NCBI RefSeq assembly: GCF_021653975.1
Contig: NZ_JAJKFK010000002.1
Location: 558,001 to 622,000, forward strand
DNA from: Amycolatopsis sp. GM8
GTDB taxonomy: Bacteria > Actinomycetota > Actinomycetes > Mycobacteriales > Pseudonocardiaceae
Length of the DNA stretch: 64,000 nt
Reading direction: 5' to 3'
The notes under the pieces were generated by a model. The model was not told the origin of the DNA. It did no database searches and saw nothing but the letters and a program-made list of their open reading frames with translations. Numbering within the stretch: position 1 is the first letter of the stretch; each line of letters begins with the position of its first letter. A program made the position numbers and the translations under genes. This document shows, piece by piece, positions 1,833 to 17,484 of this stretch.

Positions 1833-1917
1833 TCTTTTCCCGGGCCCCCTCCGCCGCCTCCCTTGCAGAAAGTATCGTGCGTGCGCGGAAATCGTTTCTG
1901 GAATTCGGGGCGGGATT

Positions 1918-3768
1918 TTGCTGACCATCGCGGGGTACCTGCTGGTGATCTTCGGGCCGGGCGCCGTGATCGGCGCGCTCGCCGGTGCCCGTGGCTGGCT
2001 GCTGCCCGGGCTCGCGCCGTTGCTCACCTATTGCGTCGCGGGCCTCGCCGGGCCCTGGTACGCGACGATCGGGGTGCCGTTCAACTGGCCGAGTTTCCTG
2101 GTCGCGGTGGTCGTCTTCGCCGGTATCGCGTTCGTCGTGCGGCGCCCGGCCGAGCGCGAGCACCACTGGGACTGGCGCGGGCAGGTCGCGGTCGGCGCGT
2201 GCGTGGTGTTCGCGGCCGCCGTGGGCGCGCGCACGGTTCTGCGCGGAATGGGCGGGATCACCGCTATTCCCCAGGGATTCGATGCCGTTTACCACGCCAA
2301 CGGAATTCGGTACATCGCCGAAACGGGTGACGGCAGCCTCACCGGAATGGGCAAGCTGAATTGGTATCCGGAAGGCCTTTTCTACCCGAACAGCTATCAC
2401 CTCGTCGGCTCGCTTGCCGAACGGCTGACGGGCGCGCCGATTCCGGTCGTGCTCAACGCGAACACCTTGCTGCTGCCGGGTTTGCTGGCGTTGTCGCTGG
2501 TCGTGCTGGTGCGCCGGTGCCACGGGCGCGCGGTGCTCGCGGGCGCGGTCGCGCTGGTGTGCGTCGCGGCCGCCACCCTGCTGTACGACTCGCTCGGCGG
2601 GCCGCTGTTGCCGTTCCTGCTCGGCCTCGCGCTCACCCCGCTGGGCACCGTCGCGTTGCGCGAATACCTGCGGCGGCCCGCGCGTGACACCGGTTTCCTG
2701 CTGGCCGCGGCCGCGGTCGGCCTGCTGACGATCCACTCGTCGACGCTGTTCGGCGGGCTGCTGTTCTCCTTGCCGCTGCTGCTGAACCGGCAACTCGGCC
2801 GGAACCTGCTGCGCCTGCTGCCGATCGCGGCGGTGAGCCTCGTCGCGGCCTGGCTGCAGCTGTCCGGCGCGCTCGGCCTCGCCTCGGGCAGCCTGCCCTA
2901 CAACGGCTGGCCGACCGAGGCGACGACGAACAAGGCCGTCGGCATCCTGCTCACGTTCCAGCGCGACGAACCACATGCGCAACTGTGGCTTTCGGCCGCG
3001 CTCCTGATCGGGCTGATCACCTGGCGCAGGCTCGGCGAGCTGCGCTGGGTCGCCGAGTCGGCCCTGCTGCTCGGCTTGTTCGCGGTCGCCGTGCTGTCGT
3101 CCGGAAACCCGCTGGTGAAAGCGCTTTCGCGGCCGTGGTGGGATGACCCGACCCGGCTGGTCGCGATGGCCACGATCCCCCTGTGCGTGCTCGCCGGGCA
3201 CGGGCTCGCCGAGGTGCAGCGCGTCATCCGGGACCGGTTCGAAACGCGCTGGTTCGCGCTCGCGACGGCGGTGCTCGTGCTGGCCGGGTTCTTCGTGGTC
3301 AGCAACCAGCTCTACACGTCGGCGAACGCCGCCGTGGTCCAGCCCGGATACGGTCCGCACGGCGGCATCGCGGAGGACGACCTGCCGGTGAGCCACGACG
3401 AGGAGCAGGCGATGCTGGCTCTCGGCCGGCTCGCGAAACCCGGTGACTGGGCGATGAACGACCGCGCCGACGGGTCGGTCTGGACCTACGCCCTCACCGG
3501 TGTCCGCACGGTGGCCGCGCATTTCGACCGCGCGCTGCCGACGCCGGAGTACACGCTGCTGGCCGCGCATTTCCGCGAGTACGACACGAACCCGCTGGTC
3601 CGCGAAACGGTGGCACGGCTGAACATCCGCTGGGTCGTACTCGGCCACGGCGGCTTCCCGACCGGGCCGCATCCGCCGGGCCTGCTCAACCTGGGCGGGC
3701 TGCCGTTTCTGCGAGTGGCTTATCAGAACGCCAACGCCACCGTGTACCAGCTGCTGCCAGCGCGGTGA
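1918..3768 (+). CDS. large polytopic membrane protein (DUF6541-like)
   Basis: About 616 residues with more than ten transmembrane segments and a soluble C-terminal part. It resembles the actinobacterial DUF6541 membrane proteins, thought to have a GT-C-like fold; no enzyme activity is established. The C-terminal region holds conserved-looking MNDRADGSVWTYALTG and WVVLGHGG segments. No ATG is well placed: the open frame runs back to 1699, but the hydrophobic N-terminus begins at TTG 1918, preceded by a GGGGCGGG stretch, so this start is a best guess. Its last 83 bases overlap the convergent flippase-like gene. Its partner across the divergent promoter is the AftB-like protein, which suggests joint envelope glycan assembly. 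Confidence 0.7.
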   Translation: MLTIAGYLLVIFGPGAVIGALAGARGWLLPGLAPLLTYCVAGLAGPWYATIGVPFNWPSFLVAVVVFAGIAFVVRRPAEREHHWDWRGQVAVGACVVFAAAVGARTVLRGMGGITAIPQGFDAVYHANGIRYIAETGDGSLTGMGKLNWYPEGLFYPNSYHLVGSLAERLTGAPIPVVLNANTLLLPGLLALSLVVLVRRCHGRAVLAGAVALVCVAAATLLYDSLGGPLLPFLLGLALTPLGTVALREYLRRPARDTGFLLAAAAVGLLTIHSSTLFGGLLFSLPLLLNRQLGRNLLRLLPIAAVSLVAAWLQLSGALGLASGSLPYNGWPTEATTNKAVGILLTFQRDEPHAQLWLSAALLIGLITWRRLGELRWVAESALLLGLFAVAVLSSGNPLVKALSRPWWDDPTRLVAMATIPLCVLAGHGLAEVQRVIRDRFETRWFALATAVLVLAGFFVVSNQLYTSANAAVVQPGYGPHGGIAEDDLPVSHDEEQAMLALGRLAKPGDWAMNDRADGSVWTYALTGVRTVAAHFDRALPTPEYTLLAAHFREYDTNPLVRETVARLNIRWVVLGHGGFPTGPHPPGLLNLGGLPFLRVAYQNANATVYQLLPAR

Positions 3769-4585
3769 GCAGATCGGCGACGGTGAACATCACCCGGGAC
3801 GCCAGCGCGAACGCCAGCGCCTTACCGGCCGAGATCCCGCTTGTGGTGAGCACGGCGACCAGCACGGCCTCGCGTACGCCGGCGCCGCTGGGCAGCAGGA
3901 ACGCAACCGATCCCGCTGTCATCGCGAGCGCCATCGCGCCGATGCAGGTCAGCAGGTCCGCCCGGCCGCCGGTGAGCAGCCACAGGTGCACGCCCTGCAG
4001 GGACCACGCCAGCAGCGAGGCCCCGAACGCCGCCCCGACGCGGAAAGCGGTGAAGTTCCGTTCCAGGGGCGGGCGCCGCGACAGTTTCAGCGCGCGCGAC
4101 GTGATCCAGGTCAGCACCCTCGGATGCAGCACCGCGATGACCGGCACCGTGGCCAGCAGCCACCAGCGCGGCCCGGCGAGCACCGCCAGCTGCAGTGCCG
4201 CGATGAGCCCGATGCCGAACTGCACGAAGGATCCGGTGAACACCCGCGCCCGGGACAGCCCGGCCTTGCGGCCCAGCTCCGCCTGCAGCAGGTAGGCCCA
4301 CACCGAGCCGGGCACGTACTTGCCGAGCGCGCCGACGAGGTTGATCCGCGCGCTGTGCCGGAAACTGACCGGCGGGCCGAGGCCGTCGACCAGGGCGTGC
4401 CAGCCGTAGGTGGACATCGCGATGCTCGCGATCAGCGCGACCAGGCTCAGCCCGGAGGACTCCCACGGGATGCCGGCGAGGGTGCGCCAGAACTCCGACC
4501 AGTTGGCCGTGAGCGCGCGCACCGCGAAGCCGACGACCAGTACGACTGCGACCCAGCGCGCGATGTCGAGAATCCTGGCTTTCAT
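3686..4585 (-). CDS. UPF0104 / lysylphosphatidylglycerol-synthase-TM family (AglD-like flippase domain) protein
   Basis: A 299-residue integral membrane protein with about eight helices. It has the family hallmarks of the UPF0104/AglD transmembrane domain: an N-terminal KARILDIARW leader, a WHALVDGLG segment, LGKYVPGSVWAYLLQAELG (about residues 85-103) and a C-terminal LLPSGAGVREAVLV. The LGKYxPGxxW plus PxGxGxRE pair is typical of proteins linked to lipid-linked glycan translocation. The ATG at 4583-4585 starts 5 bases after the luxC-like stop, so it is the last gene of the acyl-transfer operon. Its 3' end overlaps the convergent DUF6541 gene by 83 bases. Export of the locus product is inferred. 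Confidence 0.82.
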   Translation of the reverse strand: MKARILDIARWVAVVLVVGFAVRALTANWSEFWRTLAGIPWESSGLSLVALIASIAMSTYGWHALVDGLGPPVSFRHSARINLVGALGKYVPGSVWAYLLQAELGRKAGLSRARVFTGSFVQFGIGLIAALQLAVLAGPRWWLLATVPVIAVLHPRVLTWITSRALKLSRRPPLERNFTAFRVGAAFGASLLAWSLQGVHLWLLTGGRADLLTCIGAMALAMTAGSVAFLLPSGAGVREAVLVAVLTTSGISAGKALAFALASRVMFTVADLLTALAAAGTRWRWRSDKPLAETAARPG

Positions 4586-4590
4586 GGGCC

Positions 4591-5700
4591 TCAGACTGTG
4601 ACGGTGATCAGTTTCGTGAACTCGGTAAGCAGATGGTAGCCGTCCCAAACTGGGAAGAACCTGAGCGCCGATCCAAACGGGACGACCCGGTCCACCCCGG
4701 ACCGCTTCGCGAAATCGATCAGTTCCGCCTGCTCGAAGCCGAAATGTGTGACTGTCTGGTCCTTTCGCCGCACCTTCGGCACGAGTTCGGCGAGCGACGA
4801 GACCCGGGAATGTGTGAAAACCCCCACACCAAGCCATTCCCGCAGCACATCCGTCGATTCGAGACTGGTCACCGCGTCGCTGTCGAACGAGATCCGGGCG
4901 ACCCGGCCGTCCGCCGCGGCGCCGTAGGTCGAGACGCGGTTCTGCACGGCCATCGCGGGTTCGGTGACATGCCCTTTCTCTTGCGTGACGGCGACCAGCA
5001 ATGCCCGGAACTCCGCGGAAACATCCTGGTCACCGACCCAGAACACGCCTCGCGGCGAGGAACACGCGGCCTGGTCGAACCAGTACGCGTCAGTGAAGAA
5101 CGCTTCGACCGCCGACCGCCGTTCCCGCGCGGAAGCGCGCTGCCAAGCGGTAACGGAAATGATCGCGAACGAAGAACGGTCGGGAAACGTCAGGTCACGA
5201 GCATGTGGCTGGAGAGGGAATTTTCGTAGTGCTCGCACGGAATCATCGCCACCCCACAGCACGCGCAGATCGGCGGCGGCCGAAAGCTCGGCGGTCAACT
5301 CGTCGTCGCGGTCGTAGGTGATCATTCGCTGCGTCCGCGTGATCACGGGTTCGTCCAGCTCTTGCCAGACGTCCAGGATCGCCCGCGCGGCCGCGCCCGC
5401 GCGCGGGGAAATGCGCACGACATTGATGTTCCCGGCCAGCGCGGACAGCGCCCACGAATACACGAACACGGTGTCCACATTGGCCGGCGGCACATGGAAC
5501 ACCACGCCGCGCGGCTGCCGCAGGCCGTCCAAACGCGACAGTTCCCGCTCGATTTCCGCGCGTCGCAAGAAGAATCCCAGCGACGCCAGCTCCGGAAATC
5601 GGCGCCCGAGTGTGAGCAGCCGCCGCCCGAAACGGTCCAGGAACGCCACGACCCGCTCGTCACCCACGTCCAGCCGCGGGGCGCCGAGGTCGAGGTTCAT
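4591..5700 (-). CDS. LuxC-family acyl-CoA/acyl-protein reductase
   Basis: A 369-residue protein of the LuxC family, the NADPH-dependent reductase that converts an acyl thioester to a fatty aldehyde. The acyl-accepting cysteine lies in FDQAACSSPRGVFWVG (Cys about 213), matching the CSSP motif of bioluminescence LuxC. The nucleotide-binding part is around GVVFHVPPANVDTVFVYSW (66-84), as in the aldehyde-dehydrogenase fold. The ATG overlaps the stop of the luxE-like gene by 4 bases (ATGA), so the two are translationally coupled as in lux operons. No luciferase genes occur in the window, so a role in light emission is unlikely. Aldehyde formation for a glycolipid or amine is inferred. Confidence 0.9.
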   Translation of the reverse strand: MNLDLGAPRLDVGDERVVAFLDRFGRRLLTLGRRFPELASLGFFLRRAEIERELSRLDGLRQPRGVVFHVPPANVDTVFVYSWALSALAGNINVVRISPRAGAAARAILDVWQELDEPVITRTQRMITYDRDDELTAELSAAADLRVLWGGDDSVRALRKFPLQPHARDLTFPDRSSFAIISVTAWQRASARERRSAVEAFFTDAYWFDQAACSSPRGVFWVGDQDVSAEFRALLVAVTQEKGHVTEPAMAVQNRVSTYGAAADGRVARISFDSDAVTSLESTDVLREWLGVGVFTHSRVSSLAELVPKVRRKDQTVTHFGFEQAELIDFAKRSGVDRVVPFGSALRFFPVWDGYHLLTEFTKLITVTV

Positions 5701-6686
5701 GCCGCGACGGTATCCGAACAGCCGCGGACCTCGGCTTTCGGCAGCCGGCCCAATACGGTGAACCGCTTCCCGGGCCAGTCGCCGTCGTCGATGCCGTGGC
5801 ACACACCGAGATCCTCGGTCAGCAGGACATGCCCGGGATACGACCGCGGCAGCGTGCTGACCACCTCGATCACCCCCGGGACGCCGACGGGCTGTTCGGC
5901 CCAGGTGCGCGGATCCCGGATCACCACGTCCGCGAAGTCCGGGCAGTACAGGCCGTCGCCGGACGGACCTTCGACGAACACGGTGCCGATCTGCTCGACC
6001 ATCCCGTAGTAGTTGTGGATCCGCCGCAGCCCGGTGTCCTCGGCGAAGCGCCGCCGGAACTCCGCGTTGTCGACGGCCCGGTCGGCGAGCTTCTTCCAGC
6101 CGCCGGAGTGGATCAGGATACCGTTCGACAGGTCCAGCCCGTGCTCGCGCGCGAGCACGTACAGGTACTGCCAGACCAGGAAGGTGAACCCGAAGACCAG
6201 GAACGGTTCGCCACCGTGCGTGTCCAGAAACCGTTGCAGCGCGGCAAGATCGGGCTGCTCGGACTCGTCGAGCAGATACACGTGCTTGCGTCCGAAGTTC
6301 GCCATCCCCAGCACGCCGGCACCGCGCGCGGACGACGAGCGCACGATGCTCTTCCGGTCCACCACGAGCATCGGCAGCCGCGACGGCCCGAGCACCCGCT
6401 GCAACGTCGCCGAGAGCTGCCTCGTCTGCGCCGCCGCGGCCGCCTTGTCGAGAAAGATCCTCGACGGCGCGCCGGTGGTGCCCGAAGACGTCAGCACCCG
6501 GAACACCTCGCTGTCCGGGATACTCTTCAACTCGTGCGTCTTGAACAGCCGCACAGGCAGCCAGGGCAGGTCCGCCACCTCGGCGAACGTGTCGCCCGCG
6601 CCGAGCGCGGCCAGGATCCGGTCGTACTCGGCGCACCGCTCGCGGTGATACGCGGTCAGCTCGGCGAGTTCCGGCACCAGGCTCAT
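5697..6686 (-). CDS. LuxE-family acyl-protein synthetase
   Basis: A 329-residue member of the LuxE/PaaK adenylate-forming family. LuxE activates a fatty acid as acyl-AMP, takes it onto its own cysteine and passes it to LuxC. Visible features are the ATP-binding loop TSSGTTGAPS (66-75), HSGGWKKL and the near-C-terminal GRLPKAEVRGCSDTVAA. Cys 323 in RGCSDT corresponds to the acyl-carrying cysteine of LuxE. The gene is coupled to both neighbours by 4-base overlaps (with the AMP ligase upstream and luxC-like downstream). Conservation of both cysteines suggests an active LuxE-LuxC pair. Confidence 0.9.
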   Translation of the reverse strand: MSLVPELAELTAYHRERCAEYDRILAALGAGDTFAEVADLPWLPVRLFKTHELKSIPDSEVFRVLTSSGTTGAPSRIFLDKAAAAAQTRQLSATLQRVLGPSRLPMLVVDRKSIVRSSSARGAGVLGMANFGRKHVYLLDESEQPDLAALQRFLDTHGGEPFLVFGFTFLVWQYLYVLAREHGLDLSNGILIHSGGWKKLADRAVDNAEFRRRFAEDTGLRRIHNYYGMVEQIGTVFVEGPSGDGLYCPDFADVVIRDPRTWAEQPVGVPGVIEVVSTLPRSYPGHVLLTEDLGVCHGIDDGDWPGKRFTVLGRLPKAEVRGCSDTVAA

Positions 6687-8083
6687 ATCAGCTCCGTCAG
6701 CGCCTGATAGTCGATCTTCCCGCTGGCCAGCAGCGGCACCACGTCGATCGACCGGACGTCGAAACCCGAGGCGTGCAGGTGCAGCCGTTCACCGAGCGCT
6801 CGCGAGGCCTGCTTGCAGACGTCCGCGGCGACGCCCTCGGCGAACAGCACGACCTTGTCGTCGGCAGGGACCGCGGCGACGATCTCGATGCCCAGTTCGG
6901 TCGTGCGGGCCGCCTGCTCCAGGTCGTCGAGGTTGAGCCGGTTGCCGAACACCTTGCCGATGCGCTTGAGCCGGCCGGTGACGAACAGGAACCCGTCCTC
7001 GTCGAGATAGCCGAGGTCCCCGGTCGGCAGCACCCCGCCGAGTTCGTCGTCGAGCGCGAGCCCGGCCGCGTCCTCGGCGTAGCCCATCATCACGTTGGGG
7101 CCGCGGTAGACGACCTCGCCGGTGATCTTCGGATGCGTGGTCTCGGTGCCGTCGCCCAGCTGGATGCCGAACTGCCCGCCGGGGATCGCGGGTCCGACGG
7201 AATCCGGTTTGTGCGCCAGCATTTCCGCCGGCATCGTCGCCATCCGCGGCGACGCCTCGGTCTGCCCGTACATCACGTACAACCCGCCGCCCGCGGCCCG
7301 CATCCGCGCGTCGAACTCCGTGACCAGCTCGGGCCGCAGCCGCCCGCCCGCCTGCGTGAGCGTGCGCAGCCGCGGGTAGCGCGACGGGTCGAAATCCAGG
7401 CGCCGCAACATCTCGTAGTGGTACGGCACCGCGGCGATGGACGTGCAGCCCGTGTCGGACACCGCGTCCCAGAACGGGCGGCCGAGGATGCCGGACGGTT
7501 CGATCGCGATCGCCGCGCCGCGCGCGAGATGCGAGTTCAGCACCGACATCCCGTAGCTGTAGTGCGGCGGCAGGCTCGTCGGCGCCACGTCGTCCGGTCC
7601 GAGGCCGAGGACCTCCGCGATCGCGTGCGCGTTGGCCAGGATCGCGTGCCGGGACAGCCGGGCGAAGTGCGGGGCGCCGGTCGAACCACTCGTGGCCAGC
7701 AGGACCGCGAGGTCGGGATGCGGCGCCACCCCGTCCGGCGACGTACGCACCCAGTTCCCGTCGTCGTCGGCGCGGTAGCCGGGCGGCGGCAAGGCGTCCG
7801 GCGCGGCGAGCACCGCGCCGGGCCGGAACCGGGCGATCAGCTTGCCCAGCGACTCGGCGCTCAGCGCGGGGTCGATGAGCGCGACCGCGCGGGCCGCTTC
7901 GAACGCGCCGAGATACCGCAGCACGCCGGGCAGATCGATCGGCACGCGCGCGAACAGCACGCCTTCCGGCAACGCGGAAAACGCCTCGGCGGCCCGGGCC
8001 ACCTCGCCCACCAGCTCGTCGTGCCCGAGCGTGCGGCCGGAGGCCACGTCGACGAGCCGGGCGCCGTCACCGATGAGCGTCAC
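6683..8083 (-). CDS. AMP-forming acyl-CoA/acyl-ACP ligase
   Basis: A 466-residue ANL-superfamily enzyme that would activate a carboxylic acid with ATP and load it on CoA or a carrier protein. The P-loop is LLATSGSTGAPHFARLS (129-145), where the usual Lys after Pro is His. Later motifs are VMYGQTEASPR, PTGDLGYLDEDG, FVTGRLKRIGKVFGNRLNLDD and the C-terminal catalytic Lys in SGKIDY (Lys 456). At 466 residues it is short for the family. It lies 13 bases after the acyl carrier protein gene and overlaps luxE-like by 4 bases, which suggests it loads that carrier protein (inference). The native acid is unknown. Confidence 0.88.
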   Translation of the reverse strand: MTLIGDGARLVDVASGRTLGHDELVGEVARAAEAFSALPEGVLFARVPIDLPGVLRYLGAFEAARAVALIDPALSAESLGKLIARFRPGAVLAAPDALPPPGYRADDDGNWVRTSPDGVAPHPDLAVLLATSGSTGAPHFARLSRHAILANAHAIAEVLGLGPDDVAPTSLPPHYSYGMSVLNSHLARGAAIAIEPSGILGRPFWDAVSDTGCTSIAAVPYHYEMLRRLDFDPSRYPRLRTLTQAGGRLRPELVTEFDARMRAAGGGLYVMYGQTEASPRMATMPAEMLAHKPDSVGPAIPGGQFGIQLGDGTETTHPKITGEVVYRGPNVMMGYAEDAAGLALDDELGGVLPTGDLGYLDEDGFLFVTGRLKRIGKVFGNRLNLDDLEQAARTTELGIEIVAAVPADDKVVLFAEGVAADVCKQASRALGERLHLHASGFDVRSIDVVPLLASGKIDYQALTELI

Positions 8084-8096
8084 TCCGATCGCCTCC

Positions 8097-8330
8097 TCAA
8101 CCGCGCAGCTGCCGCACCAGGTCCAGCGCCACCTTGAAGCTCGAGAGATCGAGCACCTGGTCGGTGTCCAGCTGGACGTCGAACTCGTCCTCGATGGCGG
8201 CGACGAGCGTCATGTGCCCGACCGAGTCCCACTCCTCGATGCCGCGGTACTCGAGCGTCTCGACGTCCGCGTCCTCGCCGAGGTCCAGCGCCGCCACGAA
8301 CACGGCCCGCAGGCGCTGTTCGATCTCCAC
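8097..8330 (-). CDS. acyl carrier protein
   Basis: A 77-residue acidic four-helix carrier protein. The phosphopantetheine attachment serine is Ser 36 in EEWDSVGHM, followed by AAIEDEFDVQLDTDQ, the usual helix II/III sequence of free-standing ACPs. It differs from the housekeeping DSLD-type ACP and is embedded between an LpxA-like acyltransferase (3 bases upstream) and an AMP-forming ligase (13 bases downstream). It is most likely a dedicated carrier delivering an acyl group to the acyltransferase or to the LuxE/LuxC pair. Confidence 0.9.
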   Translation of the reverse strand: MEIEQRLRAVFVAALDLGEDADVETLEYRGIEEWDSVGHMTLVAAIEDEFDVQLDTDQVLDLSSFKVALDLVRQLRG

Positions 8331-8333
8331 GTT

Positions 8334-9032
8334 TCAGTCCTTCCGGTCTTCCCAGGCTCGCACCAAAGTAGAGAGCCCGGCAGGCAGCGTGCACATCAGC
8401 CCATCGGGTGGAAGTCGCGTTTTGCCCTTGAGCCACGGTTCCAGCTGATCAATCGTGTCCTGGTCGAGGCCCAGCCGGGTCAGCCCGACCACGTTCAGGC
8501 CGGCGACCCGGGCGGGGTTGCCGACCGCGATCGTGAACGCGCCGACCTCACGGCGGACGGCCGCGCCCATGCCCACCATGGCGCCCGGTCCGACCCGCAC
8601 ATGTTGATGGACGGTTACGCCCATCCCGAGGTTGGCTCGCGACCAGATCCGGACATGCCCGCCCAGCACGACATTGGAGGCCAAGGTCACCGCGTCCCCG
8701 ATGAGGCAGTCGTGCGCGACATGACTTCCTCGCAGGTAGTAGCCGTCATCGCCGAGTACCGTCGGCCGCCGCGTGCCCTGGTGCACGCTCGCGTACTCCC
8801 GGATCCGGTTCCGGTTCCCGATGCGCACCCCCGCGCCCGCGGGCTCGTCGTCCCACGCCGGATGCGGGCCGTCGCGGTCCTCCGCCGGGGTGCCGATGGT
8901 CACGTGCGGGCCGATCCAGTTGCCGTCGCCGATGGCCGCCGGCCCGGTGATGACCGTGTACGGCCCGATCACGTTGCCGGTCCCGAGCTCGACACCCGGC
9001 CCCAGCACCGCGGTCGGGTGGATGCGATTCAT
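8334..9032 (-). CDS. LpxA-like left-handed beta-helix acyltransferase
   Basis: A 232-residue hexapeptide-repeat acyltransferase. Beyond generic repeats it carries features of LpxA, the acyl-ACP:UDP-GlcNAc acyltransferase: HPTAVLGPG at the N-terminus, RIGNRNRIREYASVHQGT, the catalytic-type histidine in GSHVAHDCLIG (His 107, aligning with His 125 of E. coli LpxA), GVTVHQHVRVG, and GNPARVAGLNVVGLTRLG (171-188). LpxA proper is about 260 residues. It is the first gene of a minus-strand operon and lies 3 bases before an ACP gene, which fits an ACP-dependent enzyme. It is divergent from aminotransferase and dehydrogenase genes whose homologues make UDP-GlcNAc3N. An actinomycete has no classical lipid A, so the acceptor is probably a different amino sugar. 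Confidence 0.85.
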   Translation of the reverse strand: MNRIHPTAVLGPGVELGTGNVIGPYTVITGPAAIGDGNWIGPHVTIGTPAEDRDGPHPAWDDEPAGAGVRIGNRNRIREYASVHQGTRRPTVLGDDGYYLRGSHVAHDCLIGDAVTLASNVVLGGHVRIWSRANLGMGVTVHQHVRVGPGAMVGMGAAVRREVGAFTIAVGNPARVAGLNVVGLTRLGLDQDTIDQLEPWLKGKTRLPPDGLMCTLPAGLSTLVRAWEDRKD

Positions 9033-9073
9033 GGGCAGCCACCCTACCCACAGGCCGAAAGAGGATGACCCGC

Positions 9074-10180
9074 ATGATTCCCCTCACCGTGGTCGACGTC
9101 CGCGACGCCGAGTCGCTCGTGATCGACGTGCTGCGCTCGGGTGGTCTCGCCCAGGGGCCGATGGTCAAGCGGTTCGAGGACGCGTTCGCCCGCGTCGCCG
9201 GCACCGCGCACGCGATCGCGGTGAACAGCGGGACGACCGCGCTGGTGGCGTCGCTGCAGGCGCTGGGTCTGCGGCCGGGGGACGAGGTGATCACGTCGCC
9301 GTTCACGTTCGTGGCCACGCTGAACGCGATCCTCCAGTCGGGCGCGACGGTCCGGTTCGCCGATGTGGCGCGGGCGGACTTCGCGCTCGACCCCGACTCG
9401 GTGGCGGAGCTGCTCGGCCCGCGGACCAAGGTGCTGCTGCCGGTGCACCTGTACGGGCAGATGGCGGACATGGGCAAGCTCGCGCCGCTGGCGGCCGAGC
9501 ACGGGCTGCACGTGGTCGAGGACGCCGCCCAGTCGGTCGGCGCGACTTTCCAGGGACAATCGGCCGGATCGTACGGTTTGGGCTGTTTTTCCTTGTACGC
9601 CACCAAGAACGTCACCACCGCCGAAGGCGGGGTGATCACCACCGACGACGACGAGCTGGCGGACCGGCTGCGCTTGTTGCGCAACCAGGGCATGCGCGCG
9701 CGGTACGCGTACGAGGCGGCCGGCTACAACTACCGGATGTCGGAGCTGCACGCGGCGGTCGGCATCCCGCAGCTGACGAAGCTCGACGAGCTGGTCGCCG
9801 CCCGGCAGCGCAACGCGCGGCAGCTGTCCACCGGGCTCGCCGGCACGCCCGGGCTCGCGGTGCCGGTCGTGCTGCCGGGGCGTTCGCATGTCTGGCACCA
9901 GTACACCGTGCTGATCGGGCCGCACGCGATGCTCTCGCGCGAGGAGCTGGCCGCGGAGCTGACGGAACGCGGGATCGGCACCGGCGTGTACTACCCGAAG
10001 CTCGTGTTCGACCACGACTGTTTCCGCGGCCATCCACAGATCCCGGCGGTGCGCCCGGAGGACTTCCCGGTGGCGCACACCCTGTGCCGGCAAGCGCTTT
10101 CCCTGCCCGTGCACCCGGCGCTGACCGAGTCCGATGTGGACACCATCGTCCGCGAGGTCCGAGAGGCGCTCGGCGCATGA
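9074..10180 (+). CDS. DegT/DnrJ/EryC1/StrS-family sugar aminotransferase
   Basis: A PLP-dependent sugar aminotransferase of about 368 residues. It has the NSGTTAL substrate/cofactor loop, PFTFVATLNAIL, VVEDAAQS and the Schiff-base lysine in LYATKNVTTAEGG (Lys 178 from this start). These enzymes transfer an amino group from glutamate to a keto-sugar nucleotide. Two in-frame ATGs exist, at 9065 and 9074; GAAAGAGG at 9057-9064 sits 9 bases before the second but touches the first, so 9074 is favoured. It overlaps the Gfo/Idh gene by 4 bases, a pairing seen in GnnB-GnnA and WbpE-WbpB, which act on carbon 3 of UDP-GlcNAc. The exact sugar is inferred. Confidence 0.9.
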   Translation: MIPLTVVDVRDAESLVIDVLRSGGLAQGPMVKRFEDAFARVAGTAHAIAVNSGTTALVASLQALGLRPGDEVITSPFTFVATLNAILQSGATVRFADVARADFALDPDSVAELLGPRTKVLLPVHLYGQMADMGKLAPLAAEHGLHVVEDAAQSVGATFQGQSAGSYGLGCFSLYATKNVTTAEGGVITTDDDELADRLRLLRNQGMRARYAYEAAGYNYRMSELHAAVGIPQLTKLDELVAARQRNARQLSTGLAGTPGLAVPVVLPGRSHVWHQYTVLIGPHAMLSREELAAELTERGIGTGVYYPKLVFDHDCFRGHPQIPAVRPEDFPVAHTLCRQALSLPVHPALTESDVDTIVREVREALGA

Positions 10181-11058
10181 GACTGGCTTTGGTGGGCACC
10201 GGCGTGATGGGCCGGTTGCACGCGCGGACGATCGCCGGGAACGAGTGGGCTTCGCTGGCGCGGGTGATCGAGCCGCGGGCCACGGCCGGGCTCGCGTGCG
10301 CGGCCGAATTCGGCGCGGACTGGGCACCTTCGCTCGATTCACTGTCCGATGTGGACGCCGTGGTGCTCGCGTCGGCGACCGAGTCGCATCACGAGCTGGC
10401 ACTCGAAGTTCTCAAGCAGGGCAAGCCTTTGCTCGTCGAGAAGCCGGTCGCGGACGAACTCGGCGCGGCCGAGGAGATCGTCCAGCTGGCGGAAAATCTG
10501 GACGTTCCGGTGATGTGCGGGTTCATCGAGCGGTTCAACCCGGCGGTGCTGGCCGCGGCGCGCCTCGTCGACGAGCCCGTGCACCTGATCGCGCAACGGC
10601 ACGGGCCGTACGCGCCGCGGATCCGGACGGGCGTCGCATGGGATCTGCTGGTGCACGACGTCGATCTCGCCATCCGGTTCCTCGGTGAGCCGGCGCGGGT
10701 CGCGTCGACGGCCGGGTACTTCCATCCGCGCTCGGCCGCGGGCGCGGAAGACGCCGTGGACGCGACCCTGTCGTGCCGCACCGGGATGGCCATGGTCTCG
10801 GCTTCCCGTCTGGCGCAACGGAAAGTGCGCACGGTGACGATCACCGAGCTGGACCGGGTGATCGAGCTGGACCTGCTGCGCCGCGAGGTCGTGGTGGTCC
10901 GGGAGTCAGGGCCGGAGGCGTATCCGGTCGTGGACAGGGAACCGCTCGCGGCTCAGCTCGACCATTTCCTCGACCTGGCCGCGGGCAGGATCGACGCGGC
11001 CGCCGAGCGCGCGTCGATCCTGCCCGCGCACCGCGTCATCGCGCGGGTGCTCAGCTGA
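10177..11058 (+). CDS. Gfo/Idh/MocA-family NAD(P)-dependent sugar oxidoreductase
   Basis: A 293-residue dehydrogenase with an N-terminal Rossmann motif VGTGVMG (6-12), the family EKP motif (LLVEKPV, about 86-92) and WDLLVHDVDLAIRFLG, containing the DxxxHDxD catalytic stretch (VHDVD). Its start ATGA overlaps the aminotransferase stop, so the pair is translationally coupled. In the GnnA/WbpB/WlbA families this enzyme oxidises the 3-hydroxyl of a UDP-GlcNAc derivative to give the ketone that the aminotransferase then uses. The last 8 bases overlap the convergent O-acyltransferase gene. Confidence 0.9.
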   Translation: MRLALVGTGVMGRLHARTIAGNEWASLARVIEPRATAGLACAAEFGADWAPSLDSLSDVDAVVLASATESHHELALEVLKQGKPLLVEKPVADELGAAEEIVQLAENLDVPVMCGFIERFNPAVLAAARLVDEPVHLIAQRHGPYAPRIRTGVAWDLLVHDVDLAIRFLGEPARVASTAGYFHPRSAAGAEDAVDATLSCRTGMAMVSASRLAQRKVRTVTITELDRVIELDLLRREVVVVRESGPEAYPVVDREPLAAQLDHFLDLAAGRIDAAAERASILPAHRVIARVLS

Positions 11059-11656
11059 AGTCGCCCGCCGGGGAGCCCCACGGGGTGATCGTGGCCTCCC
11101 GGCGGCGCTTGTTCTCCGCGCGCACCCGCTCGGCCTCGGTCTTGATGTACTCCTCGTCGTAGCGCTGGAACACCCGCGCCGGGTTGCCCGCGACGAGACA
11201 GCGCTCGGGAACATCCTTGGCCACCACGGAATTCGGCTGCACGGTCACGAAATCGCCGATCGTGACCCCCGGCATGACCACCACGTGCCCGCCGATGAAA
11301 CAGCCCTTGCCGATCGAGACCGGCGTGCGCTCGATGAGATCGCTGCCGGAATGGTTCTCCAGCATCATGTTCGCCAGCCAGCTGGAATGGGTGAACACGA
11401 GCGCGCCGACGCCGATGCTGGTGTGCTCGCCGATCATCAGCCCGCCGCTCGCGTCGAGCACGGCGTCCTCGCCGATCCAGCAGTGCTCGCCGAGCCGCAG
11501 ATGCTCCGGGCTGATGATCTTCGCCCGGTCGCGGATCCTGGTGCTGGCGGGCAAACCGAGGAAGCGGGCGCGTTCGGCGTCGTTGAGGTACTGGCCGACC
11601 AGATCGGTCAGGATCTGCGGCCGTAGCCGGTTGCTGCGCTCGTCGTCGAAGAACAC
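11051..11656 (-). CDS. hexapeptide-repeat O-acyltransferase (WbbJ/CysE-like)
   Basis: A 201-residue left-handed beta-helix acyltransferase of the sugar O-acetyltransferase type. Hexapeptide repeats run from LRLGEHCWIGEDAVLDASGG to SIGKGCFIGGHVVVMPGVTIG, and the C-terminal VAGNPARVF motif is typical. A THSSW segment supplies the likely catalytic histidine. The GTG at 11656 was chosen for the GGAGG ribosome site just upstream; the first 49 bases overlap the glycosyltransferase gene in another frame. It probably acetylates a sugar made or transferred by the neighbouring enzymes. The donor is most likely acetyl-CoA (family knowledge), the acceptor unknown. Confidence 0.85.
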   Translation of the reverse strand: MFFDDERSNRLRPQILTDLVGQYLNDAERARFLGLPASTRIRDRAKIISPEHLRLGEHCWIGEDAVLDASGGLMIGEHTSIGVGALVFTHSSWLANMMLENHSGSDLIERTPVSIGKGCFIGGHVVVMPGVTIGDFVTVQPNSVVAKDVPERCLVAGNPARVFQRYDEEYIKTEAERVRAENKRRREATITPWGSPAGDFS

Positions 11657-12810
11657 GCTGCCTCCAGTAATCGCAGATGATGCTTGGCCACGACGTCGAG
11701 TGCGAAGTGCTCGCGCACCAGCGCACTCTGCCGCCGGGCGAGGTCCGCCCGCCACGCCGGATCGTCCAGCAGCCCGATGACGGCCTCCGCGACGGCGGCC
11801 GGATCATCCGGCGGGACAAGGAGAATGTTGTCGCCGTTGCGCAGGTCCACACCCGGGTAGTTGTCGGCGGCGGCCGACGCGATGGTCGCCGTGCCGGACA
11901 GCATCGCCTCCAGCGACGCCGTTCCGCAGCCGCCGTTGAGGTCGTGCGTGACGATGTCGGCCGCGGCGAAGTACGACGGGACTTCGGCGCGGGGCACCGC
12001 GCCCCGGACGACGATCGCGTCCCGAACGCCGAGTTCCTCGGCCCGGTGCAGGAATTCGTCGTGGTACACGCGCCCGACGACGGTCACCTTCGTCTCGGGA
12101 TGCTTCGCGAGGATCGACGGCAACGCCTCGACGAGCGGCAACCGGTTCCGCAGCGGGATCACATGCCCGAGCGACACGATCGACGGGTTTTCCCTTGCCC
12201 CGGCATGGATTTCCGCGCGGTCGAAGAACTCCGTGTCGATCGGGATCGGCAGATGCGTCGAGTTCGCCGCGGTCGTGCCGTAGCGGCGGGCGCAGTAGTC
12301 GGCGCCGAGCTTGTCCAGCAGGATGTAGTGCGGGTCGATACGGCGCAGCATCGGCTTCACCAGCGCGGCGTCGAGCAGCCGGAAAACCGAGCGGTACCAA
12401 GGGTTTTCGCTGATGAGCAGGGTGTGGACGGTCAGCAGGCACGGCACCCCGAGCCGCCGCGCGTACCGGCCCGCGAGCCACGACAGGTCGAAGAACTGGC
12501 CGTGCAGGTGCAGCGCGTCAGGCTGGAACTCGTGCAGCAGCCGGCAGATCCGCCGCCGGTTTCCCGGCACGAGCGCCGTGAAGCTGAGATCGAAGTCGAT
12601 CGACAGGCCCAGCTTCGGCATCTTCGCCGCGGGCAGCCGGATGATCCGGTACCCGTCGCGCTCCTCCTCCGCCGGCGCCTGCCCGTATTCCGCGGTCAGC
12701 ACCAGCACGTCGTGCCCGGCCTGGGCGTACTTCGCCGCGAGCGCCGCGGCCATGTGCGCGCTCCCGCCCACGCGCGGCGGAAAGAAGTTGTTGACGACGG
12801 CGATGCGCAT
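11608..12810 (-). CDS. GT4-family glycosyltransferase
   Basis: A 400-residue retaining GT-B glycosyltransferase. The N-terminal acceptor domain starts with MRIAVVNNFFPPRVGGSAH, whose GGS loop is typical of GT4. The donor domain includes SLGHVIPLRNRLPLVEALP and the nucleotide-binding TASLEAMLSGTATIAS region (E-x7-E-type site; the first Glu is replaced by Gly in NGGCGTASLE). It would transfer a sugar from a nucleotide donor to a membrane or cytosolic acceptor. Translation overlaps the O-acyltransferase start by 49 bases, and the epimerase stop lies 5 bases upstream of this start, so the three are probably one operon. It is the only cytosolic-type glycosyltransferase in the locus. Confidence 0.88.
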   Translation of the reverse strand: MRIAVVNNFFPPRVGGSAHMAAALAAKYAQAGHDVLVLTAEYGQAPAEEERDGYRIIRLPAAKMPKLGLSIDFDLSFTALVPGNRRRICRLLHEFQPDALHLHGQFFDLSWLAGRYARRLGVPCLLTVHTLLISENPWYRSVFRLLDAALVKPMLRRIDPHYILLDKLGADYCARRYGTTAANSTHLPIPIDTEFFDRAEIHAGARENPSIVSLGHVIPLRNRLPLVEALPSILAKHPETKVTVVGRVYHDEFLHRAEELGVRDAIVVRGAVPRAEVPSYFAAADIVTHDLNGGCGTASLEAMLSGTATIASAAADNYPGVDLRNGDNILLVPPDDPAAVAEAVIGLLDDPAWRADLARRQSALVREHFALDVVAKHHLRLLEAACSSTTSAATGYGRRS

Positions 12811-12815
12811 GCCGC

Positions 12816-13748
12816 TCAGCCGTAGGACTCGACTAGTTCGCGCATGCCTTGTTCGACCGGGATGGTCGGCGCCCAGCCGAGGATTTCCCGGGCCCGGTCG
12901 ATGTTGGCGGCTCGCCGCGAGACCAGCACCTCGCGCGGGTTGAACTCGGGCTCGACGTCGGCGCCGACCGCGTCGGTGAGGATCTTCGCCAGGGTGGCGA
13001 TCGACGTGTCGATGCCGGTGCCGATGTTGACCGGCAGGTTCGCCCGCGGCGATTCCAGTGCCCGCACAACGGCTTTCGCGAGATCCGTGACGTGCACGAA
13101 GTCCATCGACTGCTCGCCGCGGCCGTCGATCACCGGCGGTTTGCCCGCGCGCAGCCGCTGGATGAAGTGGTTGATCACCGACGTGTAGTAGGCCTCGATC
13201 TTCTGCCCCGGCCCGTACACGTTGAAGAACCGCAGCGCCAGCCAGGACAGCCCGTGCCGGCGTTCGTAGAAGCCGAGCAGATCCTCGCCCGCGCGCTTGC
13301 TGATGCAGTACGGGGTCAGCGGGCGCAACGGGTCGTCCTCGTGCATCGGCAACCGGTCCGGCTCGCCGTACACCGACGCCGAGGACGCGAACACCAGCCG
13401 CTGCACGCCTTCCGCGGCCGCGGCGGCGAACACGTTGTGGTTGCCGGTCATGTTGATGTCGATCGACTCGTGCGGGTCCGCGACGGACTTGTTGATCGAC
13501 ACCGTGGCGAAGTGGATCACATGCGTGCAACCGCGGATCGCCTCGCGCACCGCGCCGCCGTAGCGCACATCGGCCTCGATCAGCTCGACCCGGCCGGTCG
13601 CGACGAACTCGTCGACGCGGGCCCGGTCCCCGCGGGTCATGTTGTCGAAGATCCGCACCGAGTAGCCGCTCTCGAGCAGCAGCGGAATCGTGTGCGCGGC
13701 GATGAACCCCGCGCCCCCGGTGAAGAAAACCTTGCGGTCAGGCATCAA
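12816..13748 (-). CDS. NAD-dependent NDP-sugar epimerase/dehydratase (extended SDR)
   Basis: A 310-residue extended short-chain dehydrogenase/reductase. The cofactor site is FFTGGAGFIAAH (8-19), the catalytic set is ASSASVYGEP (Ser about 124) with Tyr 147 and Lys 151 in PYCISK, followed by RFFNVYGPGQ and the substrate-region motif NIGTG. This is the GalE / NDP-glucose epimerase pattern. An ATG pair at 13748 and 13745 offers two starts. It overlaps the aminotransferase stop by 11 bases and precedes the glycosyltransferase by 5, so it probably prepares the donor sugar for that enzyme. 4-Epimerase versus 4,6-dehydratase cannot be decided by eye. Confidence 0.88.
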   Translation of the reverse strand: MMPDRKVFFTGGAGFIAAHTIPLLLESGYSVRIFDNMTRGDRARVDEFVATGRVELIEADVRYGGAVREAIRGCTHVIHFATVSINKSVADPHESIDINMTGNHNVFAAAAAEGVQRLVFASSASVYGEPDRLPMHEDDPLRPLTPYCISKRAGEDLLGFYERRHGLSWLALRFFNVYGPGQKIEAYYTSVINHFIQRLRAGKPPVIDGRGEQSMDFVHVTDLAKAVVRALESPRANLPVNIGTGIDTSIATLAKILTDAVGADVEPEFNPREVLVSRRAANIDRAREILGWAPTIPVEQGMRELVESYG

Positions 13749-14856
13749 CAGCTCCTCGAACGGCGTCGATCACTCGGTCTGCCTGCTCCTCGGTGAGCTC
13801 GGCGTGCATGGGGATGGCAAGGTGCCGGCGGAACGCGTCCGCGGACACGGGCAGCGGGCGCTGCCGGCCGTAGACGGGCTGCAGGTGCGAGGCGTAGGTG
13901 CCGAACGTGCAGCCGATCCCCCGCGCACGCAGCCCCGCCAGCACGCGGCCGCGGTCCAGTTCGGGCGCGAGCAGCAGAAGGTAGCTCTGCCAGGGATGTT
14001 CGCGATCCGGCAGCTCGGCCGGCACCTCGACCGCGTCGAGCTCCCGGAACGCCTCGGTGTACCGCTTGGCGACCGACCGCCGGGCGGCGAGCAGGCTCGG
14101 CAACCGGTCGAGCTGGGCGCCCAGGATCGCGGCCTGCACGTCGGAGAGCCGGAAGTTGTAGCCCAGCTCGTCGAACACCGGCACGTCCTCGCCGCGCCCG
14201 AACGCCGGCGCGACGCCGTACGAATGCGTCTTGCGGGCGCGCTCGATCAGCACCGCGTTGTCCGAGACGAGCGCGCCACCCTCGCCGGCGGTGATGCCTT
14301 TGCGGCCGTGGAAGGAAAAGGCCGCCAGGTCGGCGAGGCTGCCGGCGGGCCGGGTGCGGTAGGTCGCGCCGGCCGCGCACGCCGCGTCCTCGAACAGCCA
14401 GAGCCCGTGCCGGTCGGCGATCGCGCGGTACGCGTCGAAATCGCCCGGCTGCCCGGCGAGGTCCACGACGAGGATGCCGACCGTGCGGGGGCCGATCGCG
14501 GCCTCGATCGCCGCCGGGTCCGCGCAGAACGAGTCGGGCCGCACGTCGGCGAACACCGGCGTGGCACCGGACTGCAGCACGGCGTGCCCGGTGGCCGGAA
14601 AGGTGTAGTCCGCGACGACGACCTCGTCGCCGGGGCCCACGCCGAGTGCCCGCAGCCCCAGGAAGAGCGCGGAACCGCAGTTGCTCGTCGCGAGTGCGTG
14701 CGCGGTGCCGGTGAGGTTCGCGAACCGCGCCTCGAACCGCCGGCAGGTGGGACCGGCGCCGGCCAGCCAGCCCGAGGCGAACACCGCGGCGACGGCGGCG
14801 AGTTCGGGTTCGCCGACCGTCGGCCGGCCCAGCGGAATCGTCGGCGGAATTGTCAA
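13738..14856 (-). CDS. second DegT/DnrJ/EryC1/StrS-family sugar aminotransferase
   Basis: A sugar aminotransferase of about 372 residues, distinct from the one at 9.1 kb. It shows the SNCGSALFLGLRAL cofactor loop, ADYTFPATGHAVLQSG, FEDAACAAG and the PLP lysine in FSFHGRKGITAGEGG (Lys 186 from this start). Start choice: a GTG at 14871 extends the frame, but AAGGAG at 14868-14863 lies 6 bases before TTG 14856, so TTG is favoured; GTG remains possible. It heads the minus-strand operon of aminotransferase, epimerase, glycosyltransferase and O-acyltransferase, and is divergent from the LhgO-like gene. A second amino sugar is inferred. Confidence 0.87.
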   Translation of the reverse strand: MTIPPTIPLGRPTVGEPELAAVAAVFASGWLAGAGPTCRRFEARFANLTGTAHALATSNCGSALFLGLRALGVGPGDEVVVADYTFPATGHAVLQSGATPVFADVRPDSFCADPAAIEAAIGPRTVGILVVDLAGQPGDFDAYRAIADRHGLWLFEDAACAAGATYRTRPAGSLADLAAFSFHGRKGITAGEGGALVSDNAVLIERARKTHSYGVAPAFGRGEDVPVFDELGYNFRLSDVQAAILGAQLDRLPSLLAARRSVAKRYTEAFRELDAVEVPAELPDREHPWQSYLLLLAPELDRGRVLAGLRARGIGCTFGTYASHLQPVYGRQRPLPVSADAFRRHLAIPMHAELTEEQADRVIDAVRGAVDA

Positions 14857-14934
14857 GGGGGACTCCTTCACCTCGCGCGGAGTCTAAGCAGCAAACCCCC
14901 TCACTCGATCAGGCGAACCCGTACTCTGGGCCTC

Positions 14935-16731: not shown

Positions 16732-17484
16732 ATGACCATCAGTCCCTTCGAGATCACCCTGCCCGCGCAGACCGGCGTCGGCGTGGTCGCGCCGTTCGAC
16801 TTCGCCCTCGACCGCGAGCTGTGGCGCTGGGTGCCGGACCAGGTGTGCCTGCACACGACCCGGTTGCCATACCTGCCCGAGCCGGTCACGGTGCAGCTGG
16901 CCGAAGCGCTGAGCGACCCGCACGGTGTCCGCCGCGCGACCCGCGACGTGCTCGTACCCGAACCGCTTGTCGTCGCCTACGCCTGCACCTCCGGCAGCTT
17001 CGTCGGTGGCGCGGCCGGTGAGGCGGCGCTGGTCGCGGGCATGCTCGACGCGGGCGCGCCCGCCGCGGTCACCACGTCCGGAGCGCTGATCCGCGCGTGC
17101 ACCCGCCTCGGCGTCCGGCGGCTCGCGGTGATCACGCCGTATGTGGACGACGTGACCGACCGGCTGCTGGCTTTCCTGGCGGAGTACGGCATCGGCACCA
17201 CCGCGAGCGTCGGTCTCGGCATGCTCGGCGACATCTGGAAAATGCCGTACTCGGCGGTCCTCGGCGCGGTCGCGGGCCTGGACGTGACGGGCGCCGACGC
17301 GCTGTTCGTCAGCTGCACCAACGTGCCCACCTACGATCTGGTCGCCCCGCTGGAAAGACGGCTCGGCATTCCCGTGCTGACCGCCAATCAGGTCACTCTG
17401 TGGGCCGCGCTGGAGGATGCCGGCGCGGCCCTGTCGCATTCCAGTGCCCTGACGGCACCGCTCGCGGTGTCCGAGGTCGCCTGA
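16732..17484 (+). CDS. maleate isomerase / Asp-Glu racemase superfamily protein
   Basis: A 250-residue protein of the aspartate/glutamate racemase superfamily, closest in pattern to maleate cis-trans isomerase and arylmalonate decarboxylase. The two catalytic cysteines are visible: YACTSGSFVGG in the N-terminal half and FVSCTNVPTYD in the C-terminal half. These enzymes isomerise or decarboxylate small dicarboxylates through a cysteine thiolate. ATG 16732 has GAAGGGAAAA about 8 bases upstream. It lies 61 bases before serS on the same strand. The substrate is not determinable; maleate is one candidate. Confidence 0.82.
   Translation: MTISPFEITLPAQTGVGVVAPFDFALDRELWRWVPDQVCLHTTRLPYLPEPVTVQLAEALSDPHGVRRATRDVLVPEPLVVAYACTSGSFVGGAAGEAALVAGMLDAGAPAAVTTSGALIRACTRLGVRRLAVITPYVDDVTDRLLAFLAEYGIGTTASVGLGMLGDIWKMPYSAVLGAVAGLDVTGADALFVSCTNVPTYDLVAPLERRLGIPVLTANQVTLWAALEDAGAALSHSSALTAPLAVSEVA

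Follow-up and report, generated by a model that had tools for sequence, protein, structure and literature searches.

We analysed a 64,000-nucleotide stretch of the genome of Amycolatopsis sp. GM8 (contig NZ_JAJKFK010000002.1, positions 558,001 to 622,000; hereafter the window), which carries a compact set of genes that may make an acylated amino sugar. On the minus strand, genes for a YbhN-like membrane protein, LuxC, LuxE, an acyl ligase, an acyl carrier protein (ACP) and an LpxA-like acyltransferase follow one another in coordinate order, divergent from a plus-strand pair encoding a DegT aminotransferase and a Gfo/Idh dehydrogenase (Table 1). An earlier note on this DNA had named these eight genes and placed them in two divergent operons; all are present, with their families confirmed by profile scores. 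Because same-strand neighbours overlap by 4 bases or sit 3–13 bases apart, each strand looks like one operon, and the proposed dedicated ACP and acyl ligase are both in the operon of the LpxA-like gene. The distance of 41 bases between the operons holds if DegT starts at its second ATG (9074), which by eye has the better-placed ribosome site, but not from the first ATG (9065), where the gap is 32 bases. The best NCBIfam match of the ligase is ligase_PEP_1 (141 bits against a cut-off of 592), and no FabG-like gene lies between the ACP and ligase genes in the window.

Table 1. Genes of the set, their neighbours and the arabinogalactan genes in the 40 kb that precede the window (positions in the window; for the arabinogalactan genes, ‘40 kb before window’ means anywhere within those 40 kb).
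Feature	Position	Strand	Profile match
YbhN / LPG_synthase_TM (UPF0104-like) membrane protein, candidate flippase	3686..4585	-	PF03706, 57.4 bits
LuxC-family acyl reductase	4591..5700	-	PF05893, 105 bits
LuxE-family acyl-protein synthetase	5697..6686	-	PF04443, 156.5 bits
AMP-forming acyl ligase, presumed ACP loader	6683..8083	-	PF00501, 119.7 bits
ACP with DSV motif (phosphopantetheine serine)	8097..8330	-	PF00550, 21.2 bits (cut-off 20.8)
LpxA-like left-handed beta-helix acyltransferase, 232 aa	8334..9032	-	TIGR01852, 168 bits
DegT/DnrJ/EryC1 sugar aminotransferase, GnnB-like position	9065 or 9074..10180	+	PF01041, 387 bits
Gfo/Idh/MocA sugar-nucleotide dehydrogenase, GnnA-like position	10177..11058	+	PF01408, 74.7 bits
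Second hexapeptide acetyltransferase, frequent neighbour	11051..11656	-	PF00132, 45.9 bits; WcaF-like, 72 bits (cut-off 192)
GT4 glycosyltransferase, frequent neighbour	11608..12810	-	PF13579/PF13692
NAD-dependent sugar epimerase/dehydratase family	12816..13745	-	PF01370, 182 bits; galE, 150.8 bits (cut-off 262)
Second DegT aminotransferase, frequent neighbour	13738..14871	-	PF01041, 347 bits
Galactan ABC exporter ATPase	40 kb before window		466 bits (cut-off 400)
DprE1	40 kb before window		781 bits (cut-off 500)
DprE2	40 kb before window		418 bits (cut-off 250)
DPPR synthase	40 kb before window		452 bits (cut-off 207)
Glf	40 kb before window		345 bits (cut-off 304)
AftA and two GlfT2-like proteins	40 kb before window		

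Using the LpxA-like protein as query in one pattern-based scan of a genome collection (84,980 species), we kept the best 80 of 297 relatives. Among those 80 are 21 named loci at 65–91% identity (20 labelled Amycolatopsis, one Tamaricihabitans); the other 59 share at most 41% identity and come, judging by their titles, from Gram-negative or otherwise didermic groups. When fixed score thresholds are applied, each of the 21 named loci has all eight genes, and 19 have a ninth, for a FabG-like short-chain reductase, located between the ACP and ligase genes (absent in the two near relatives L009 and L010; L and G numbers denote loci and genomes). A further 40 stretches of about 20 kb each (two of 11–12 kb) were fetched, of which L142 was dropped as a duplicate of L028, leaving 39. 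DegT and Gfo lie less than 100 bases apart in all 38 loci in which both score above threshold, as do ACP and the LpxA-like gene in 32 of the 34 loci holding both. Such co-occurrence, at every named locus and with DegT–Gfo adjacency in 38/38, exceeds chance. At 17 of the 39 fetched loci DegT and Gfo share the stretch of the LpxA-like gene. For nine more (G058, G062, G067, G247, G250, G249, G230, G246 and G018), a search of 14 genomes with the Gfo protein placed an orthologue (51–62%) at a distance of 10–18 kb from the LpxA-like gene, and DegT is presumed there from the 38/38 adjacency; with L146, where Gfo is cut at the stretch edge, 27 of the 39 are linked to Gfo. The remaining 12 comprise L139 and L140, where Gfo is present at 33–37% identity; L143, a second LpxA-like copy in a genome that holds the whole set elsewhere; L128–L130 and L147, whose LpxA-like protein groups with true LpxA; and five genomes described below (G081–G083, G206 and G209). 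The Gfo/DegT/LpxA-like trio of the earlier note is supported in that it stays together across genera, with the eight genes kept at every named locus.

Within the same family, the LpxA-like protein has a match in 152/390 genomes (E 1e-20), 71 of them in one genus, g11. Across the phylum, matches were found in 6 of 396 genomes (E 1e-15) and LuxE in three, each count including the genome of the window; this rarity, set beside the abundance in the family, indicates that the system belongs mainly to Pseudonocardiaceae. In 23 searched genomes whose stretch held no LuxE, the gene was absent from 18, distant (27–28%) in three and present in two, so the sugar trio can exist without the acyl genes. The set therefore consists of two separable modules, a sugar module (Gfo, DegT and LpxA-like) and an acyl module (ACP-FabG-ligase-LuxE-LuxC), of which the sugar module occurs alone in other Pseudonocardiaceae. 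The five-gene order of the acyl module is seen at 19 of the 21 named loci and at L155 and L163, and not in the window.

For the LpxA-like protein, ACYLTRANSFERASE, we built a maximum-likelihood tree of 104 rows with midpoint rooting. The window protein falls inside a 49-row clade with support of 94/89, just under the bar of 95/80 that the tree program sets for a firm branch. This clade is sister to a 52-row clade (100/94) of true LpxA, including Leptospira LpxA (3hsq), and two NeuD-type proteins fall outside both. It divides (88/63) into a 33-row clade associated with the cassette of acyl genes (96/97) and a 15-row second clade (96/72), and contains one Saprospiraceae row as well. An ACP is seen on the stretch for 26 of the 33 cassette-clade rows, and 26 of 27 cassette-linked LpxA-like rows fall in that one clade. 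Members of the second clade, which includes PDB entry 8e62, mostly lack an ACP; the split is not absolute, since four members or near copies (L113/G018, L134, L135 and L146) have LuxE at their locus. The long branches of 8e62, the NeuD rows, L152 and L037 make their own places in the tree unsure. The window protein misses the curated LpxA cut-offs (168 bits against 231 for TIGR01852; 179 against 226 for NF003657). It matches the LpxA structure 4eqy at 123.9 bits, against 32.8 bits for 3mqg, which we take to be a WbpD-type enzyme. The name LpxA-like, given in the earlier note, can therefore stand as a likeness, in that the protein groups with LpxA over the two NeuD-type proteins and keeps the residues described below. 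It does not denote membership, and LpxA proper was rejected as the family label. A few other Pseudonocardiaceae proteins (L128, L129, L130 and L147) do fall with the true LpxA clade.

In the cassette clade, H107, D108, H142, Q143, N180, R186 and E79 are kept in 33/33 rows, H126 in 32/33 and R78 in 31/33 (Lys in two); in the second clade each of these nine is found in 12 to 14 of 14 rows. PDB 8e62 lacks Arg78, Glu79 and Arg186. The NeuD controls keep H107 and D108, with N180 in one and H126 in the other, and lack most of the nine. For E. coli LpxA, H125 and D126 are described as the catalytic dyad, H122 with Q73 as possibly controlling selection of the 3-hydroxyacyl chain, and enlargement of G173 as raising activity with a 10-carbon analogue (PMC6286764). 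Ungapped alignments allow this numbering to be transferred by a constant offset of 18, giving H107/D108, H104 and M155. The counterpart of H122, H104, is His in 31/33 cassette-clade rows (Trp in two); in the second clade it is His in 1/14 and Tyr in 12/14, and it is Tyr in 8e62. From these residues, the cassette-linked enzymes look suited to a 3-hydroxyacyl group, and those of the second clade less so. At the ruler position, that of G173, M155 is Met in 30/33 rows of the cassette clade (Leu in three) and in 14/14 of the second clade; 44 true LpxA rows have Gly in 32 and Met in 10. Structure 7oj6, presumably P. aeruginosa LpxA with Met at this ruler position and taking a C10 chain, has a Met aligned with M155.

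The sugar pair was compared with named models and solved structures. On the UDP-GlcNAc 3-dehydrogenase model NF040723 the Gfo protein scores 137.5 bits (cut-off 450). The best solved relatives of DegT are perosamine synthases, and its nearest ones also include 2oga (233 bits), which we take to be a macrolide-sugar transaminase. A search of 64 sequences at E 1e-8 for a UDP-sugar 6-dehydrogenase gave no match (0/64); the two own-genome proteins used as queries recover all three own-genome copies, the third not being usable as a query. The Wbp uronic-acid route to UDP-GlcNAc3NAcA has a 3-dehydrogenase (WbpB), a 3-aminotransferase (WbpE) and an N-acetyltransferase (WbpD) in sequence, much as proposed here, and in contrast requires the 6-dehydrogenase WbpA (PMC10622841). 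With no 6-dehydrogenase in the locus that route was set aside, and GnnA/GnnB appears to fit better. The arrangement expected of GnnA/GnnB, adjacent Gfo/Idh and DegT genes linked to a gene of the LpxA family, is what the locus shows. Further likenesses to the LpxA and GnnA/GnnB route are the beta-helix family, the catalytic His/Asp, the HQ motif, the Asn/Arg of the nucleotide site and the ACP; the window protein differs in its sister-clade position, in being about 28 residues shorter (median) and lacking a coil of true LpxA, in having no LpxC and in its Gram-positive host. The GnnA/GnnB/LpxA idea of the earlier note is a good working model, with the Gfo/DegT pair as putative GnnA and GnnB, a sister family in place of LpxA and a probably short acyl group.

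Turning to the acyl module, the ACP motif [DN]S[VLMI] is present in 60/60 relatives. Against the solved LuxC–LuxE complex 7xc6 the matches are weak (27.9 bits for LuxC, 52.1 bits for LuxE), with key residues aligned: Cys213 in DQAACSSP of LuxC with the cysteine in DQQACFS of 7xc6_A, and the C-terminal cysteine in RGCSDT of LuxE with KGCS of 7xc6_E. The LuxC cysteine is present in 41/41 aligned rows, the window included, where an earlier motif search had caught 32/40; the last 25 residues of the LuxE relatives contain GCS or GCA in 40/41 and GCG in the remaining one. Given that both cysteines, which we presume to be the acyl carriers, are kept, LuxE and LuxC probably activate and reduce a carboxylate during the making of the acyl group. 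The best own-genome match to FabG is 42% identical, and so no close copy; in the actinobacterial cassette loci the match to it is 59–86% identical, except in Nonomuraea (48%).

We examined the acyl module at seven places outside the family. A plasmid of Deinococcus sp. NW-56 carries ACP-SDR-AMP ligase-LuxE-LuxC followed by a NeuD-family acetyltransferase (185.5 bits, cut-off 160.8) inside an exopolysaccharide cluster, and a Ponticoccus plasmid carries ACP-SDR-ligase-LuxE with a GNAT gene, LuxC being on the opposite strand. One of ten Rhizobium plasmids has a NeuD-like gene, an ACP, a ligase annotated in two pieces and LuxE-LuxC. Its acyltransferase gene, annotated as an acyl-ACP-UDP-GlcNAc acyltransferase, is NeuD-like (144.2 bits for TIGR03570 against 49 for TIGR01852) and so adds no further case of LpxA with LuxCE. 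In G1004, from the class of a Methylovulum genome, where LuxE occurs in 1 of 274 genomes, PseF-PseI-PseG and a PseH-like gene (68.9 bits, cut-off 93.1) stand directly before ACP-FabG-ligase-LuxE-LuxC. Nonomuraea has the five cassette genes together with PseI/PseB and a PseG scoring below threshold, so that the cassette occurs in two pseudaminic-acid clusters, and G727 (same phylum) has the five with a hexapeptide transferase. In all, an acyltransferase gene lies beside the cassette at six of the seven places, one of them marginal. The partners are LpxA-like in Pseudonocardiaceae and in G578 (described below), NeuD in Deinococcus, NeuD-like in Rhizobium, PseH-like in G1004 and hexapeptide in G727; in L134, L135 and L146 the LpxA-like gene is kilobases from the cassette. 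This adjacency is suggestive and not proof, because glycan clusters often hold acetyltransferases. Two-part transketolase genes were also seen near the LuxE/LuxC cassette on the Rhizobium plasmid (L158:3362-5186) and in G1004 (L163:17958-19501); these transketolases might act on an aldehyde produced by LuxC.

Related acyl genes have been described in glycosylation islands. Aeromonas group II flagellar islands carry ACP-FabG-ligase-LuxE-LuxC in the same order, downstream of pseH and beside amino-sugar genes (PMC7874193), and Enterobacteriaceae islands carry the same five gene kinds (PMC4875605). In these islands the cassette accompanies pseudaminic-acid genes, whereas here it accompanies the LpxA-like gene and a presumed 3-amino-sugar pair, with FabG lost in the window. 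Aeromonas AH-3 has the LuxE/LuxC cassette in its island and an unidentified 102-Da group on its flagellin (PMC7874193). The viosamine island of Pseudomonas syringae makes an N-(3-hydroxybutanoyl) amino sugar, for which mutants of some genes were checked by mass spectrometry (PMC3927599). It shares DegT, a hexapeptide acyltransferase, an ACP and a ketoacyl-ACP reductase leading to an N-acyl amino-sugar nucleotide, and differs in making a 4-amino sugar on dTDP and in using the acyltransferase VioB and a ketoacyl synthase; neither a ligase nor LuxC/LuxE is among the seven genes listed for it (PMC3927599). Among the titles listed, none suggests a prior report of the gene set; its acyl module is known from the flagellar islands (PMC7874193, PMC4875605). 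The searches, by titles, covered LpxA/Amycolatopsis, LpxA/LuxE/Actinobacteria, GnnA/GnnB/LpxA and arabinogalactan/Amycolatopsis amino sugar. The gene set is thus real and conserved, and apparently unreported in the titles searched.

The wider context of the locus points to the cell surface. Arabinogalactan genes occupy the 40 kb before the window (Table 1), with glf ending about 1.3 kb from it. G578 is an actinobacterium from a different family (completeness 94%, contamination 3%), and in it the whole set except YbhN lies on one 17-kb contig as LpxA-like-ACP-FabG-ligase-LuxE-LuxC and DegT-Gfo (57% and 37% identical). There the genes (L165, L166; G578:C210) are situated between flagellar genes, with a flagellin gene on one side (PF00669, 90.6 bits), of which the N-terminal 86 residues lie at the contig end, and FlhA, FlhB, FliR, FliQ and FliP on the other, a GT2 protein lying between; this makes the set a candidate flagellin glycosylation island; YbhN was not found in the 17 kb searched. 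Of the hints to a surface-glycan sugar donor, and not a membrane lipid, as the product, this context is the strongest, though it comes from one genome only.

These data allow us to propose a pathway. On balance we favour the reading that the locus makes a nucleotide-linked amino sugar that carries a short acyl group on an amino group, likely at C3, with the dedicated ACP as supplier, and that this sugar is destined for a surface glycan. In this pathway Gfo/Idh would oxidise C3 of a UDP-hexosamine (UDP-GlcNAc or its C4 epimer) and DegT would aminate the resulting ketone, while the ligase would load a carboxylic acid onto the ACP. In most relatives the FabG-like reductase, lost in the lineage of the window, would set the oxidation state of the beta-carbon. 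The LpxA-like enzyme would then transfer the acyl group from ACP to the 3-amine, after which the sugar would be added to a surface glycan by local glycosyltransferases, YbhN being the candidate flippase. We distinguish here between gene content, order, conservation, family and conserved residues, which were observed, and every reaction, position, chain length and the final glycan, which we infer. The C3 position is argued from the best match of Gfo, the UDP-GlcNAc 3-dehydrogenase model, and from the action of LpxA at C3, and is less certain than the gene set. A galacto configuration is possible given the epimerase-family gene next door. A short 3-hydroxyacyl group is suggested by the 3-hydroxybutanoyl analogue (PMC3927599) together with the ruler Met and the kept His104. 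The lipid-modified sugar put forward in the earlier note is unlikely, with Met at the ruler position and a four-carbon N-acyl group in the nearest tested analogue.

More tentatively, ACP-FabG-ligase-LuxE-LuxC might be a portable module that builds one unusual, partly reduced short acyl group on its own ACP for an LpxA-like, NeuD- or PseH-type partner. Its LpxA-like branch in Pseudonocardiaceae might have turned lipid A chemistry to the making of a 3-N-acyl amino sugar for a wall glycan linked to arabinogalactan. The 102-Da group of Aeromonas could then represent the acyl group built by the module; the calculated mass of a dihydroxybutanoyl residue is 102.03.

Several observations weigh against the pathway proposed here. 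Its main gap is that LuxC and LuxE have no assigned step in it, the reductive release suggested in the earlier note being a putative role only, and FabG is dispensable in the lineage of the window. The LpxA-like protein is outside the true LpxA clade, and Gfo and DegT score far under the curated cut-offs of their nearest named models. No ACP is present in the stretch seen for 7/33 cassette-clade rows, and since the second clade mostly functions with no cassette, donors other than ACP may be used as well; PDB 8e62 lies inside the 49-row clade. Among the outside cassettes, the Ponticoccus GNAT match is just under its cut-off, and no recognised acyltransferase lies beside the cassette in Nonomuraea. 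In G081–G083 Gfo is more than 270 kb away or on another contig, and G206 and G209 have distant Gfo homologues only. Presence is patchy even in the own genus, and with 7 of 19 listed genomes carrying it the LpxA-like gene is not essential. Finally, a strict arabinogalactan marker was seen in the stretch at only 2/21 named and 15/39 fetched loci, or 4/21 and 25/39 when neighbouring HAD, F420 and PAP2 genes are counted too; with counts this low the arabinogalactan link is only putative for most Amycolatopsis loci.

One rival is a Wbp/FdtC-like route to a plain N-acetylated 3-amino sugar, with acetyl-CoA as donor for the LpxA-like enzyme and some other role in the same glycan for the ACP/Lux cassette. 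Many trio loci do lack the ACP cassette, LuxE is absent from 18 of the 23 searched genomes whose stretch held none, the ruler Met would also accommodate a very short acyl group, and 8e62, a 189-aa protein in the LpxA-like clade, is labelled a UDP-N-acetylglucosamine acyltransferase. We nevertheless regard this route as doubtful, given that ACP is within 100 bases of the LpxA-like gene in 32/34 loci, that the cassette clade keeps H104 where the second clade and 8e62 mostly have Tyr, that other phyla also have the cassette next to acyltransferase genes and that the 0/64 result for a 6-dehydrogenase makes a uronic-acid route unlikely. The same proximity of ACP, and the grouping of 26/27 cassette-linked rows in one clade (96/97), also make it improbable that the two modules only happen to share a variable polysaccharide locus while contributing to different sugars or substituents. 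This is an explanation to which their separability, the kilobases between LpxA-like gene and cassette in L134, L135 and L146, and the presence at the locus of a second DegT, an epimerase-family gene and a second acetyltransferase would lend themselves.

A membrane product was also considered. An LpxA-like active site, an ACP and YbhN at 21/21 named loci speak for a glycolipid route, in which, as in the first steps of lipid A synthesis, a long acyl chain is placed on an amino sugar that is anchored in the membrane and flipped by YbhN. LpxC was not found in the own genome (E 0.01; E. coli among the controls gave a signal; the search covered LpxC and no other lipid A genes). Met occupies the ruler position, where 32 of 44 true LpxA rows have Gly and 10 have Met, and the G578 set, with no YbhN in the 17 kb searched, stands beside flagellin and points to a glycan; we therefore consider this route very unlikely. 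Least probable of all is a secondary-metabolite cluster with a deoxyaminosugar, to which only slight weight can be given. The actinomycete host and the presumed macrolide-sugar transaminase 2oga among the DegT relatives favour it. Against it stand the lack of assembly-line genes among those identified around the set (the window being annotated to 19 kb), its position next to arabinogalactan genes in this genome and to flagellar genes in G578, and the 71 matching genomes in the single genus g11. A plain secondary-metabolite cluster was judged unlikely on this gene context.

If the proposed ACP-dependent acylation is correct, it would give an LpxA-like sugar acyltransferase of this kind a Gram-positive home and would predict an undescribed acylated amino sugar in the surface glycans of Amycolatopsis and its relatives. 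It would also offer a testable role for the LuxC/LuxE pair, for which two genome surveys that place it in flagellar glycosylation islands offer no more than the suggestion of a ‘liposugar’. The eight-gene set is compact enough for in vitro testing.

Within the set, YbhN is present at 21/21 named and 18/39 fetched loci. The genes that adjoin the set are themselves frequent at the named loci: GT4 is present at 21/21 named and 9/39 fetched loci, and the corresponding counts are 18/21 and 1/39 for the second hexapeptide acetyltransferase, 17/21 and 5/39 for the epimerase-family gene and 17/21 and 4/39 for the second DegT. About 28–30 kb before the window, a NeuB-family synthase gene (PF03102, 283 bits) and a CTP-transferase-like gene (L154:9988-12173; G000:C12) adjoin the second GlfT2-like gene, as if a nonulosonic acid were made there. 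The set is flanked by genes at window positions 1897-3768 (+) and 546-2027 (-), namely one for a DUF6541 protein (PF20176, 357 bits), found at 12/21 named loci, and a second large open reading frame that has no Pfam match and looks by eye like a membrane protein. An arylmalonate-decarboxylase-family gene (PF17645, 86.5 bits) lies beside the locus at 16732-17484 (+).

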